Part shown: piece after piece, positions 13,208 through 61,617 of the stretch
How the letters are laid out: the number at the start of each line of letters is the position of its first letter
Position numbering within the stretch: the first letter of the stretch is position 1
Assembly (NCBI RefSeq): GCF_000243155.2
Contig: NC_018017.1
Coordinates: 1,922,001-1,986,000 of the forward strand
Origin: Desulfitobacterium dehalogenans ATCC 51507
GTDB lineage: Bacteria > Bacillota > Desulfitobacteriia > Desulfitobacteriales > Desulfitobacteriaceae
Direction: 5' to 3'
DNA length: 64,000 nt
The notes under the pieces: model-generated
What the model saw: the letters and a program-made list of their open reading frames with translations, nothing else
Databases searched by the model: none
What the model was told of the DNA's origin: nothing
Made by a program: the position numbers and the translations under genes

Positions 13208-13211
13208 TTAT

Positions 13212-14040
13212 CTCCAGGATTTTGCTTTCGGCGTTCACTCCATAAGCTGCGCGGAGCAATCTAATCGCTCAAGACCTCCGCTGCGTCGGGTACACCTGCG
13301 CCGCTAAGCAGTCTCTGTGGCATGGCGGCTTGGGCGAAACCCTCGCCCGGGTTTCGTGGCCAAATCGGCTCCTCGAAAGCACTGCTTTCGCACTTGTTCT
13401 CAATGGCTGGTTGGAAACGTCCTGTTTCCAACCCGACTCCGCTGCAGTCTTTTCGCGAAGATTGCTTACCTGCTCGCTTAGAATCCGTTCTCTGCCTTAA
13501 AGCAAAATCCTTGGGCTGTCTTTCGGGCAAGGGAGGCGTGGATGTAGGATAAAGCTATACAACCTGAGCCATCTTTTCATCATCTGCTGGTGCTATGTCA
13601 GCGGCATGGTTGGCTATTCTGAAAATAACCCCCGAAAAGACCTAAAAAAGAGTCGAAAAAAGACCCGCCAGCGTAGCTTTGCGCACAAGAGCGAACGATT
13701 TTCACTGTGTATAAGGCAGCTAAGGCTTCTGCTTCGCTTCACTCACCATAAGCCAAGCTTTCTTTAAGCGGAGGGGTGGTTGGGTCAACGAGGCTTTCTT
13801 AACATAGCGGAGCCACTGGTTCACATCAGGTATTACCCGGAGGTTTGGCGTCGAAAGTGTCCAGTGGACAGTTTCGCTCAAGGCGGCATTCCCCAAAGAA
13901 CGCTTATCCGCCGCAGATGCTGTTAAGAAAGCGAGTTGACCAACCCTGGAGCTATTGAGTACGTGAGCTCCGATGAAGAAAGCCTCCGGTGGAGGGTTTC
14001 AGGAGCTCACGCCCGAAGGTGCGTTGTGCGTAAAGCTACT
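13212..14040. repeat. Structured dispersed repeat, copy 1 (two domains)
   Basis: Gene-free 0.8 kb region that matches 58927-59677 in ordered blocks with variable linkers. Domain 1 (13214-13514) is closed by long-range arms CCAGGATTTTGCTTT / AAAGCAAAATCCTTGG and contains a perfect 9-bp hairpin at 13410-13432 (GTTGGAAAC/GTTTCCAAC). Domain 2 (13673-14039) is closed by 16-bp arms (13673-13688 / 14024-14039), holds an inner ~25-bp paired arm (13778-13804 / 13921-13945), and a hairpin at 13853-13875. Several paired positions change together between copies, pointing to selection on structure. A third stem at 13945-14015 (GTGAGCTCC/GGAGCTCAC) is only in this copy. I see no convincing protein in it. 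Whether it is an RNA, a MITE-like element or both is open. Confidence 0.8.
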
Positions 14041-14120
14041 ACCTGACCCGGATCACGTTTTTCACCCCCTGCTAGTACCGTCTGAGCAGCGTGGTGGGCT
14101 ATTTTGAAGGTGTGGAGCGA

Positions 14121-58064: not shown

Positions 58065-58886
58065 ATGCCGGAACTACCAGAAGTAGAAACCATTCGCAGA
58101 AGCCTGTGCCAGCGCATTCTTAATCTAAGGATTGAGGATATCCTGATTCGTTGGCCAGGTGCTGTAGAGGGATATGAAGGGAAAACCTTTGCAGATACTG
58201 TCAAGGGATTGAGGATTCAAAGTATCGAAAGACGTGGGAAATACCTTTTGTTTACCTTAGAAGAGGGCTGGTCCTTCATCGCTCATATGCGCATGACAGG
58301 ACGCTTGGTTTACCACGCCCAAGGACAAGAACCGGAAAAGCATACCCATGTGGTTCTTAAGCTATCTTCAGGTGAGGTTCATTTTACCGATACGCGCAAA
58401 TTCGGCCGGCTGCAGTTAGTGAGAACTGAGGAACGCCTCAAACAACCCTCTTTAGCCCGGTTGGGTCCGGAGCCTTTAGAAGGCGGCTTTAGCGCGGAAG
58501 AATTGGCACGGCGCCTGGCTCCCCGCAAGCTGGCTATTAAGGCAGCCCTCTTGGATCAGAACCTTCTGGCGGGAGTCGGCAATATCTATGCCGATGAGGC
58601 CTTATTTCGGGCGGGGATTGCCCCGGAGCGGTGTGCCAATTCTTTGACGAAAGAGGAGACAGAGAAGCTTTATACTGCCATTTGTCAAGTTCTTGAGGAG
58701 GGTATCGCCGCCAATGGCACCTCTTTCCGGGATTATCAGGATGCTAATGGAGAAAAAGGCGACTTTCAAAAGGAATTGAATGTCTATGGTCGTGGGGGAG
58801 AAGCGTGTAAATGTTGCGGCCATACTCTGGAAAGAATTCGTCTGGCCGGCAGGTCAACTGTGTTTTGCCCCCGCTGTCAGAGGTAA
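58065..58886 (+). CDS. mutM: Formamidopyrimidine-DNA glycosylase MutM (Fpg)
   Basis: 273 residues that remove 8-oxoguanine and ring-opened purines and cut the abasic site. Seen: catalytic N-terminus PELPEVETIRRSL (Pro2 nucleophile, Glu3), the Lys in ERRGKYLLF, H2TH helix region (LLDQNLLAGVGNIYADEALF), NGTSFRDYQ and the C-terminal zinc finger CKCCG...CPRCQR. It sits 60 bases after polA and is part of a repair cluster conserved in Firmicutes. The repeat copy 2 starts just after it. Confidence 0.97.
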   Translation: MPELPEVETIRRSLCQRILNLRIEDILIRWPGAVEGYEGKTFADTVKGLRIQSIERRGKYLLFTLEEGWSFIAHMRMTGRLVYHAQGQEPEKHTHVVLKLSSGEVHFTDTRKFGRLQLVRTEERLKQPSLARLGPEPLEGGFSAEELARRLAPRKLAIKAALLDQNLLAGVGNIYADEALFRAGIAPERCANSLTKEETEKLYTAICQVLEEGIAANGTSFRDYQDANGEKGDFQKELNVYGRGGEACKCCGHTLERIRLAGRSTVFCPRCQR

Positions 58887-58925
58887 AGCTGATTCCGCTG
58901 CTCTGAGAAGGACTTGAAAGCGGAG

Positions 58926-59678
58926 TCTCCAGGATTTTGATTACACCGGTCGCTCCATAAGCTGCGCGGACAAAACTAACGCGAAAAGCCCACCGCTCCG
59001 TCGGGTGCCCGCCCAAATCACTCCTGCTCAATGGGCGGTTGGAAACGTCCTGTTTCCAACCCGACTCCGCTGCGTGCTTCTCGCGAAGTTTTGTTTCCGC
59101 TCGCTTAAATTCACTTCCCTTGTGTAAATCAAAATCCTTGGGCTGCCTTTCGGGTCTGAGTGGGCGGGGCGTTGTGTGAGTTGTGGGAGCTGTGGGGCAA
59201 GCTATCTTATCCAAGCCGCTTTTTCCGTCTTTACCGACGCCGCTTGAGGCGGCAAGGTCGGCGATTAAGCAAGGCTCTGAAGAAAGCCTGAGCTGACCCC
59301 GGAAATGTCTCGCAAAGAGCGTCAGATCCTCGGGGCTCCAGAGAAGAACTTAAAGAAACCCGCAAGACGTAGCTTTACGCAACAAAAGGGAACGGATTTC
59401 ACTGTGTATAAGGCAGCTAAGGCTTCTGTTTCGCTTCACTCACCATAAGCCAAGCTTTCTTTAAGCGGAGGGGCGGTCAGGTTAACGAGGCTTTCTTAAC
59501 GAAGCGGAGCCACGGTTAGCATGCAGAAAACAGCGGGGTTTGGCGACGAAAGTGTCCAGTGGACAGTTTCGCTCAAGGCGGCATTCCACAAAGCATGCTT
59601 ATCCGCCGCAGATGCTGTTAAGAAAGCGAGTGAACCGGCCCTGGAGCTATGGAGAGATCGTTGTGCGTAAAGCTACGC
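58926..59678. repeat. Structured dispersed repeat, copy 2 (two domains)
   Basis: Same element as 13212-14040, same direction. Domain 1 (58929-59141) is closed by CCAGGATTTTGATT / AAATCAAAATCCTTGG and has the identical hairpin GTTGGAAAC/GTTTCCAAC at 59038-59060. Domain 2 (59369-59676) is closed by GTAGCTTTACGC / GCGTAAAGCTAC arms, with the inner paired arms 59475-59500 / 59617-59640 and the hairpin at 59548-59570. Linkers differ in length and sequence from copy 1. It separates mutM from the ABC-F gene; both flanking genes have their own ribosome sites and intact ends. Minus-strand open frames here are shadows. Confidence 0.8.
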
Positions 59679-59754
59679 GACCCGAAGGTTCGTCATGCAC
59701 AACGCTAGGCGACCCAAGCAAACGATATAGAGTTGTAACAAAGGAGTTATCGCT

Positions 59755-61617
59755 ATGAGTATTCTTTACTGTCGGAGTTGCGGCGTGGATGTTTCCGGGG
59801 AAGCCCTTTTCCGGCAAGTAACCTTGGCTGTAGAGAAGGGAGAGAAGGTGGGGCTGGTAGGACCCAACGGGGCGGGAAAGACGACCCTGCTGCGGGCCTG
59901 CCTAGGGGAGCACCCTCTGGAAAGCGGAGAGGTATTTCTTACGGGAACGTGGGGATACCTTCCTCAGAATCCTTTAGTTGAAGATAAGGGAACCGTCTGG
60001 GAGAGCATGTTGGCAGAACGGGCTGATCTCATTGAAATGAAGGAACAGCTTCATGTCCTTGAAGAAAGGATGGCTCATGCAACAGATGGGAAAGTTTTTG
60101 ATCAGTACAGTGCCCTCACTGAGCGTTTTGAAAACATGGGGGGGTATGCGCTGGAAGCCCAGGTGCGCAAGATCCTTTCCGGTCTTGGACTTTCGAAAGA
60201 AGCTGAGCGCCCCATTCAGCACTTGAGCGGGGGACAAAAAACAAGGCTTGCTTTGAGCAAACTCCTTCTGCGTTCTCCGGAATTTCTGGTCCTGGATGAG
60301 CCGACCAACCACCTAGACATGGATGCCTTGGAATGGCTTGAAGGATTTTTGAAAGGCTATGACGGTGCGATTTTAGTGGTTTCCCATGATCGTTATTTCC
60401 TGGATCATGTGGTTCAGAAAGTTCTTCATTTGGAAAATGGCTCTCTGAAGAGCTATCCCGGCAACTATTCCGAGTATGAGCTGCAACGGGCGGTGGAAGA
60501 GACCACCCTGGCCAGGGAAGCGGAACGGGTAAGCAAAAAGATTGCCCGCCTGGAGGAATACATCCGGCGTTACAAAGCGGGAATAAAATCCAAGCAAGCC
60601 CGTGGCCGGGAATCTCAGCTCCAAAAGATTAAGCCCGTCGAGGTGAATAAAAATCCTAAGTCTTTGCATATTTCCCTGGCGACGGGACGGCGCAGCGGGG
60701 ATCGGACCCTCATGATCCAGGGGGTATCCATCGAGTTTCCCGGCCGGAAGTTGTTCCATGGGGTTAATGTGGAACTGCGCCGTGGAGACCGGGTGGCCCT
60801 TCTCGGAGAAAATGGGATTGGCAAGACCAGTTTGCTCAAAGCCATTAAAGGTTCACTGCCCTATAAAGGTGAGATTCGCCTGGGGGCCAATGTCAAGCTG
60901 GGTTATTATTCCCAGGAACATGAGGAATTGCAGGGCAAGGGCAGCATCATAGATGAAATCCGGGGGGACACCGATCTGCTTGACCCGGAGATTCGCAGTC
61001 TGCTGGCTCGATTCGGGTTTGTAGGAGAAGAGGTTTTTAAGCCGGTTTCCGTATTAAGCGGGGGAGAAAAAAGCCGGCTGGCTTTGTCCAAACTCTTCCT
61101 CTCCCAAGGGAACCTGCTCCTCCTGGACGAGCCCACCAACCACCTGGATACCCGTATGCGGGATGTCCTGGAAGAAGCACTCCAGGATTATGATGGAACC
61201 CTCTTGATAGTCTCCCATGACCGCTACTTTTTGGACCGGGTGGTTAATAAAATCGCCCGTTTGACTCCTGAGGGACTTAAAGTCTACGAAGGGGACTATA
61301 GTATGTATAAGGCTCAAGTCCAGGAAGAAGAGGCTGCTTCCTCAGGTGGGAGCACTTCCCCCGGTACGGCCGCAGGAACCCGTTCCTATGATAACTCAAA
61401 AGAAGCGGACCGCGAAGCAAGACGGCGCCAGAGAAAAGCTCAACAATTAGAGACGCAGATTACTGAACTGGAAGAAGAAATACAGTCCTTAGAAGAACAG
61501 ATGTCTGCGGTAACCTCCAATTATGAAAAAGCTCTGGAACTTCACCATCTTTTTGAGGAAAAAAAGGCTTTATTGGATAATACTATGATAGAGTGGTTAG
61601 AAATAACAGAGGAATAG
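59755..61617 (+). CDS. ABC-F family ATPase (YdiF/Uup-like)
   Basis: 620 residues with two ATP-binding cassettes and no membrane part: cassette 1 with GPNGAGKTTLL, LSGGQKTRLALSK and LVLDEPTNHLD, a charged linker (residues ~245-300), cassette 2 with GENGIGKTSLL, LSGGEKSRLALSK and LLLDEPTNHLD, and a C-terminal coiled coil (QLETQITELEEEIQSLEEQM). ABC-F proteins act on the ribosome as translation factors or give antibiotic resistance; this one most resembles the YdiF/Uup housekeeping type. AAAGGAG precedes the ATG. Not part of the usual polA-mutM-ytaF-coaE order, so it is an insertion between mutM and ytaF. Confidence 0.92.
   Translation: MSILYCRSCGVDVSGEALFRQVTLAVEKGEKVGLVGPNGAGKTTLLRACLGEHPLESGEVFLTGTWGYLPQNPLVEDKGTVWESMLAERADLIEMKEQLHVLEERMAHATDGKVFDQYSALTERFENMGGYALEAQVRKILSGLGLSKEAERPIQHLSGGQKTRLALSKLLLRSPEFLVLDEPTNHLDMDALEWLEGFLKGYDGAILVVSHDRYFLDHVVQKVLHLENGSLKSYPGNYSEYELQRAVEETTLAREAERVSKKIARLEEYIRRYKAGIKSKQARGRESQLQKIKPVEVNKNPKSLHISLATGRRSGDRTLMIQGVSIEFPGRKLFHGVNVELRRGDRVALLGENGIGKTSLLKAIKGSLPYKGEIRLGANVKLGYYSQEHEELQGKGSIIDEIRGDTDLLDPEIRSLLARFGFVGEEVFKPVSVLSGGEKSRLALSKLFLSQGNLLLLDEPTNHLDTRMRDVLEEALQDYDGTLLIVSHDRYFLDRVVNKIARLTPEGLKVYEGDYSMYKAQVQEEEAASSGGSTSPGTAAGTRSYDNSKEADREARRRQRKAQQLETQITELEEEIQSLEEQMSAVTSNYEKALELHHLFEEKKALLDNTMIEWLEITEE

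Follow-up and report, generated by a model that had tools for sequence, protein, structure and literature searches.

The two dispersed repeats of about 0.8 kb in the window (the whole stretch of 64,000 nucleotides of Desulfitobacterium dehalogenans ATCC 51507 that was analysed) probably, at roughly 0.72, belong to a modular family of non-autonomous, non-coding, palindromic mobile repeats of Desulfitobacteriaceae and relatives, built of hairpin modules that can be nested in one another. Each repeat is a composite of separable modules rather than one RNA gene. Mobility is strongly supported: we found more than 60 dispersed copies, orthologous sites that are empty, separate gain and loss of the two domains (D1 and D2), and near-identical recent copies in a relative. 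Our best reading of the family is as a previously undescribed relative of the MITE/REP kind that is unusual for its nested design and for the faithful conservation of its fold.

The sequence-only reading had placed the repeats at 13212-14040 (copy A) and 58926-59678 (copy B) and had described ordered conserved blocks in both. These coordinates are correct, and D1 followed by D2 is common to the two copies, in the same orientation and far above chance: the best match between them scores 364 bits vs 28 bits at most in 30 shuffles, D2 is 87.6% identical over 306 nt (BLAST, E about 1e-102), and the D1 blocks are 80-82% identical. The two domains differ from each other, both being long imperfect hairpins closed by their own inverted arms as had been proposed, and the fold z-scores of the two window copies are -4.1 and -2.9. 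Terminal inverted repeats are formed by the D1 arms, by the D2 closing stem and, as read from the sequence, by an outer repeat of the TGAAAAAG/CTTTTTCA type around D2. The neighbours of copy A are mscL (+) and a convergent pseudouridine synthase gene (-), and those of copy B are a formamidopyrimidine-DNA glycosylase gene (+) and an ABC ATPase gene (+). The two copies do share one orientation relative to the window, as had been pointed out, but this is not informative because both orientations occur genome-wide. Two hairpins had been named as conserved blocks; the GTTGGAAAC/GTTTCCAAC hairpin is indeed invariant (13409-13433 and 59037-59061), whereas the GTCCAGTGGAC hairpin is real but is part of an inserted module, X, rather than of the D2 core, and many D2 copies are without it. 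The features of the two copies are as follows.

13211-13516 (+), D1 of copy A, a long imperfect hairpin closed by TCTCCAGGATTTTGCTTT / AAAGCAAAATCCTTGGGC; 187.9 bits in the R2 covariance model, a sign of consistency and not independent proof, since copy B and many copy-A-like copies from other loci were in the training set
13293-13364 (-), module X in D1 of copy A, inverted relative to X in D2; 72% identical to the other strand of 59539-59614
13374-13390 (+), small extra D1 hairpin CGAAAGCACTGCTTTCG, missing from most copies in the alignment
13409-13433 (+), D1 apical hairpin GGTTGGAAACGTCCTGTTTCCAACC of copy A, invariant or nearly so in 28 sequences from several genera
13517-13670 (+), spacer of copy A, a Z-type hairpin (GGTGCTATGTCAGCGGCAT region) and a purine-rich linker; 71% similar to the post-D2 stretch 14031-14108
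13671-14039 (+), D2 of copy A, a long hairpin closed by GTAGCTTTGCGCAC / GTGCGTAAAGCTAC; partial R1 model match of 83.6 bits, 87.6% identity to copy B, and covariation
13818-13849 (+), D2 apical motif GGTTCACATCAGGTATTACCCGGAGGTTTGGC of copy A, kept across genera in pattern scans while the stems change
13850-13920 (+), module X near the D2 apex of copy A, hairpin CGAAAGTGTCCAGTGGACAGTTTCG and a second hairpin; this piece (D2X) matches only 12 places in its own genome
13959-14022 (+), optional terminal hairpin (GTGAGCTCC...GGAGCTCAC) in the D2 base, from the alignment; 17 matches to this end piece vs 55-62 for the D2 core pieces
14040-14110 (+), post-D2 tail with a Z-type hairpin, from the sequence and its similarity to the spacer; its CTTTTTCA-type end pairs with the TGAAAAAG-type start before D2
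58926-59143 (+), D1 of copy B, compact and without X; 235.4 bits in the R2 model, to be read as for copy A
59037-59061 (+), D1 apical hairpin of copy B, invariant, from the sequence
59144-59366 (+), spacer of copy B with hairpin CCGTCTTTACCGACGCCGC...GCGGCAAGGTCGGC, from the sequence
59367-59677 (+), D2 of copy B, 87.6% identical to copy A over 306 nt; R1 model match of 96.3 bits for 59428-59678
59514-59544 (+), second form of the D2 apical motif (GGTTAGCATGCAGAAAACAGCGGGGTTTGGC) in copy B; the related form GGTTCACATGCAGAAAAGCCCAGAGGTTTGGC occurs in distant genera
59545-59614 (+), module X in D2 of copy B, from sequence matches

Genome-wide, we found at least 64 copies of D1 and at least 55 copies of D2 in D. 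dehalogenans (4,321,753 bases, one contig). Block matches from searches and a profile scan number 64-65 for D1 and 55-62 for D2, which are lower bounds, and searches with the models added a few more. D1 is followed by D2 in fixed order and orientation in at least 53 of the 73 assembled copies, with a spacer of 15-266 nt in these 53 composites, and stand-alone copies of D1 and of D2 are also present. Pairs of composite copies align at 84-87% over 608-697 nt of D1, spacer and D2. Since the alignment spans the spacer too, the D1-D2 composite moved as one unit. Median pairwise identity within the genome is 81% for D1 (72-93%) and 75% for D2 (59-92%). The family is old in this genome, and no recent activity was seen there.

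Pieces of the repeat occur across the whole class. The D1 model matches 35 of the 83 genomes of the class (six genera, all of one family), and the D2 model matches 58 of the 83 (19 of 27 genera, three families), with the apical motif retained in representative distant D2 matches. The number of D2 matches in a genome is often a lower bound, being at or close to the maximum reported per genome. Since the element is palindromic, reverse complements of true copies also score 37-49 bits in the covariance models; hence, matches in this range were not counted as relatives, and only clearly higher ones were. All 66 stretches obtained by scanning 84,980 species genomes for the exact motif come from Desulfosporosinus, Paradesulfitobacterium and one MAG each of Desulfitobacterium, Peptococcaceae and Clostridiales. 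A phage or plasmid origin was rejected for lack of any match to the repeat in the viral contigs, phages and plasmids searched.

The modules are nested. Module X consists of the GTCCAGTGGAC hairpin and a second hairpin, and its orientation in D1 of copy A is opposite to that in D2 of copies A and B; other genera carry a 64-nt block of this module in the absence of D1. With D2X matches at so few places in the genome, most D2 copies must be without module X. Z-type hairpins likewise occur in both the spacer and the tail. At one locus of Paradesulfitobacterium ferrireducens (L220), the outer ends recur about 100 nt upstream around another short insert with no D2 inside. One genome of the Desulfosporosinus group (G007, locus L182) carries a tandem pair of D2 copies with a 352-nt period.

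Comparing 13 sites of D. dehalogenans with a second Desulfitobacterium species (G003), we found D1 and D2 at 4 sites, D1 only at 4, a truncated D1 at 1, and no element at 4; at two of the empty sites, the relative has what appears from its sequence to be a terminator-like hairpin at the equivalent position. P. ferrireducens has 15 near-identical, ORF-free D2 units of 247 nt at unrelated sites, which differ at about 4 positions on average, mostly at the edges, and the unit is absent at 5 of 5 sites examined in a congener (G043). Their layout is CTGCCCTGAAAATAGAC, D2, GGCTATTTTCAT, a small hairpin, then GGGAGTCTGAC; the post-D2 tail layout of copy A recurs in them. These near-identical units (about 247 nt with the small 3' hairpin) show recent amplification. 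Several of them (L209, L220, L228, L238, L259 and others) lie within degenerate heptamer tracts of the TGACTCC / GGAGTCA types, and the heptamer orientation is opposite on the two sides of the unit.

The empty sites under comparison, which have diverged or are flanked by direct repeats derived from the element, showed no target-site duplication; those in the second Desulfitobacterium and in the P. ferrireducens congener are too diverged to place the element ends to the base. Two differences between close Desulfosporosinus genomes (G015 and G012), of 290 and 470 nt, are flanked by the short direct repeats GAAGCYRCCCRACCCAAG and CTACYCT, and these remnants look more like loss by recombination between the repeats than like exact excision. 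Between the same two genomes, a stretch of about 570 nt that contains D1 together with an inverted D1-like partner has the opposite orientation while the flanking genes are otherwise collinear (L038 vs L039), and L038 also carries an insertion with a HicB-like ORF.

The copies are placed at gene 3' ends. With gene context taken from simple ORF calls and the composites oriented on the element, 40 of the 53 lie between tandem genes (20 in each direction), 12 between convergent genes and 1 between divergent genes (divergent vs convergent, P = 0.003). The 16 recent insertions of P. ferrireducens include 13 tandem, 2 convergent and 0 divergent sites, and 1 that is not classifiable. This placement is consistent with removal of insertions from promoters or with preferential insertion into 3' intergenic DNA. 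At the rpmB/hslO junction, D2 is present in the same orientation in two genera, and an oxidoreductase/acyltransferase gene pair is also a copy site common to different genera. Hence, either certain copies date far back or certain sites have been used repeatedly. Such persistence at the same junctions may point to hot spots of insertion or to copies being kept for a role. Counts by replichore strand (22:7 and 23:21, P = 0.05, with the origin assumed at base 1) were not used as evidence.

These contexts could also be read as bidirectional 3'-end elements, in which the hairpins, whatever their origin, are kept for transcription termination or mRNA 3'-end protection in either direction. The location next to the 3' ends of genes, whichever way the element faces and with only one of 53 composites between divergent genes, the terminator-like hairpin at two empty sites of the relative and the conserved convergent junction rpmB/hslO all agree with such a role. 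Against it, terminator-like patterns are absent from copy B and only weak in copy A, many sites do without the element, and promoter purging predicts the same placement, which is already present among the recent copies. We consider a 3'-end function very unlikely as the explanation of the family.

The paired arms of both domains covary. With covariation counted on alignments that were not fitted to a structure, 19 of 59 pairs in D1 and 12 of 51 pairs in D2 changed on both sides while the pair was kept, which exceeds every shuffle for most measures as well as slid controls. No Rfam 15 family matched even near threshold, and none at E up to 10, so the earlier statement that no known class is recognised holds. 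Hence, this is a real structure, and one that the sources searched do not describe.

The two domains differ in strand preference. Restricting the test to pairs whose commonest state is Watson-Crick, we found G-U in excess at 24 pairs of D2 and A-C at 5 among the copies of D. dehalogenans (P = 0.0005, on a structure derived from RNA energies), and 20 to 6 among copies of other genera (P = 0.009, on a model-fitted alignment). In D1, the corresponding counts are 7:10 and 16:10, with no strand preference. When the complementary strand of D2 is folded, most G-U cells become A-C mismatches. Since mutation alone is expected to be symmetrical, this asymmetry indicates selection on the folded plus strand of D2. 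In addition, the D2 apex (GGTTCACNTCAGGTAYTACCCNNAGGTTTGGC, or the second form GGTTCACATGCAGAAAAGCCCAGAGGTTTGGC) is constant across genera while the stem sequence differs. Hence, the folded single strand of D2 is the conserved entity, although the asymmetry alone does not distinguish between RNA and single-stranded DNA.

The sequence-only reading had offered a large structured RNA or a palindromic mobile element; the mobile part stands, and a single RNA gene of about 0.8 kb does not. We regard as unlikely the wider form of the RNA alternative: a large family of functional RNAs acting in trans or in cis, transcribed either from D1-D2 as a single structured molecule or from D2 only, with the many copies as gene copies. 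It would account for the strong covariation in both domains, the strand-specific G-U excess and the apical motif of D2 that is invariant across genera on variable stems, the fixed order of D1 and D2, and the persistence at rpmB/hslO between genera. It is opposed by the equal orientations relative to genes (20:20), the separability of D1 and D2 with variable inserted modules, presence and absence at orthologous sites, the lack of strand bias in D1, and the stretch inverted relative to its neighbouring genes between two close species; furthermore, neither copy has a sigma-70-like promoter or a terminator pattern consistent with the unit. For D2, an RNA-level role is possible in view of its strand-asymmetric pairing. 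The pairing specific to one strand, the fixed order of the modules and the invariant apex on changing stems are also compatible with D2 as a conserved, protein-free structured RNA that drives its own spread, whose apical motif would be bound by a host protein in trans (e.g. a reverse transcriptase or an RNA-guided nuclease) and in which D1 and X would be accessory modules that inserted at loops of the RNA; we hold this version to be quite unlikely.

For the mobile-repeat reading, a mobiliser was sought among Y1/RAYT genes in D. dehalogenans and twelve relatives. RAYT-like genes are present in several relatives, but none of the Y1/RAYT genes examined is associated with the repeat: at 13 loci with such genes, no D1 or D2 was found within about 1.5 kb. 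Conversely, the genes beside the copies include no recurrent transposase and no recurring family apart from host genes. The RAYT-like genes of three relatives, in L299, L300 and L304, adjoin GGGACAAGGGGACAGG- or CGTCCCCTTGT-type repeats (GGGACA-type, CGTCCCC-type), which are a separate family. In D. dehalogenans, the only Y1/RAYT genes are IS200-like with an in-frame TAG. The TAG lies at the same early place (MDTESLAHTR*NCKYHIVF...) in the loci at 3340137-3340490 (minus strand, L130) and 3415479-3415831 (L131/L132), the second of which is additionally frameshifted; the position is presumably that of a tryptophan in IS200 proteins.

It is thus highly improbable that the repeats are REP elements moved by RAYT, a Y1 tyrosine transposase acting on single-stranded hairpins. 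The hairpins, the intergenic 3' location, the strand asymmetry of D2 and the existence of RAYT-like genes in several relatives would suit this explanation. Beyond the TAG-bearing IS200-like genes and the unrelated neighbours of the Y1/RAYT genes, it is countered by the D2-rich genomes G017, G006, G075 and G078, which have no RAYT family at the threshold used, and by the size of the element, which is much larger than REP.

Among known systems, MITE-like small mobile repeats (ERIC, Correia/NEMIS and CIR) are non-coding, dispersed and intergenic, fold into long RNA hairpins, and are under 200 nt; in CIR, a linker connects two hairpin arms (PMC2229807). The D1-D2 repeats resemble them in being non-coding, dispersed and intergenic with long hairpins, in having both filled and empty sites and near-identical copies, and in having terminal inverted repeats, and D1-spacer-D2 recalls the two arms and linker of CIR. 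Unlike these repeats, D1-D2 is about 470-760 nt with separable nested modules, no TA ends or target-site duplication were seen here, and the pairing of D2 is strand-asymmetric. REPs measure 20-40 bp and carry a GTAG or CGTC tag, and REP/BIME elements are linked to RAYT transposases (PMC3733652). As in REP/BIME, hairpin repeats occupy 3' intergenic space and one folded strand is likely recognised; in contrast, D1 and D2 are about 180-370 nt with no adjacent RAYT found, they are not GTAG- or CGTC-tagged palindromes of 20-40 nt, and GTAG is not found at the start of D2 in other genera. Non-autonomous elements derived from IS200/IS605 have subterminal hairpins and no target-site duplication, and their single-strand recognition would fit here; however, no matching IS ends or transposase were found, and the Y1 genes examined have other neighbours. 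The long covarying hairpins and conserved apical motifs are like those of Rfam structured RNAs, except for the lack of an Rfam 15 match. The family works like MITE/REP elements, while membership in REP/RAYT is not borne out and membership among the MITEs stays tentative as to target-site duplication and an autonomous partner.

D1 and D2 are separate long hairpins that can each stand alone, and in this lineage they probably spread mainly as the D1-spacer-D2 composite. We propose that a hairpin-recognising enzyme supplied in trans would act on one folded strand, that of D2, and would copy the unit into 3'-intergenic sites, with insertions in promoter regions being purged. A hairpin unit that inserts into the loop or bulge of another would give rise to nested modules, and copies could later be lost when the short direct repeats at their edges recombine.

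The repeat family is a frequent intergenic feature of these genomes, and we found no description of it in Rfam or in the literature searched, nor any literature on repeats in Desulfitobacterium. It clearly exemplifies the nesting of hairpin modules within one another and selection on the folded single strand of a mobile repeat, and the recent burst in P. ferrireducens should make the mobilising enzyme findable.

Coding content was rejected, in agreement with the earlier view that neither copy encodes a plausible protein: the internal ORFs have no Pfam match, and recurring adjacent ORFs are translations of the repeat or host genes. Masking of the repeats is advised in annotation since they give spurious ORFs such as 58744-59214 (-). 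This frame (156 aa) and that at 59540-59758 (+, 72 aa) run through the copy B repeat and would be annotated as hypothetical proteins; comparable spurious frames turn up in other copies of the repeat.
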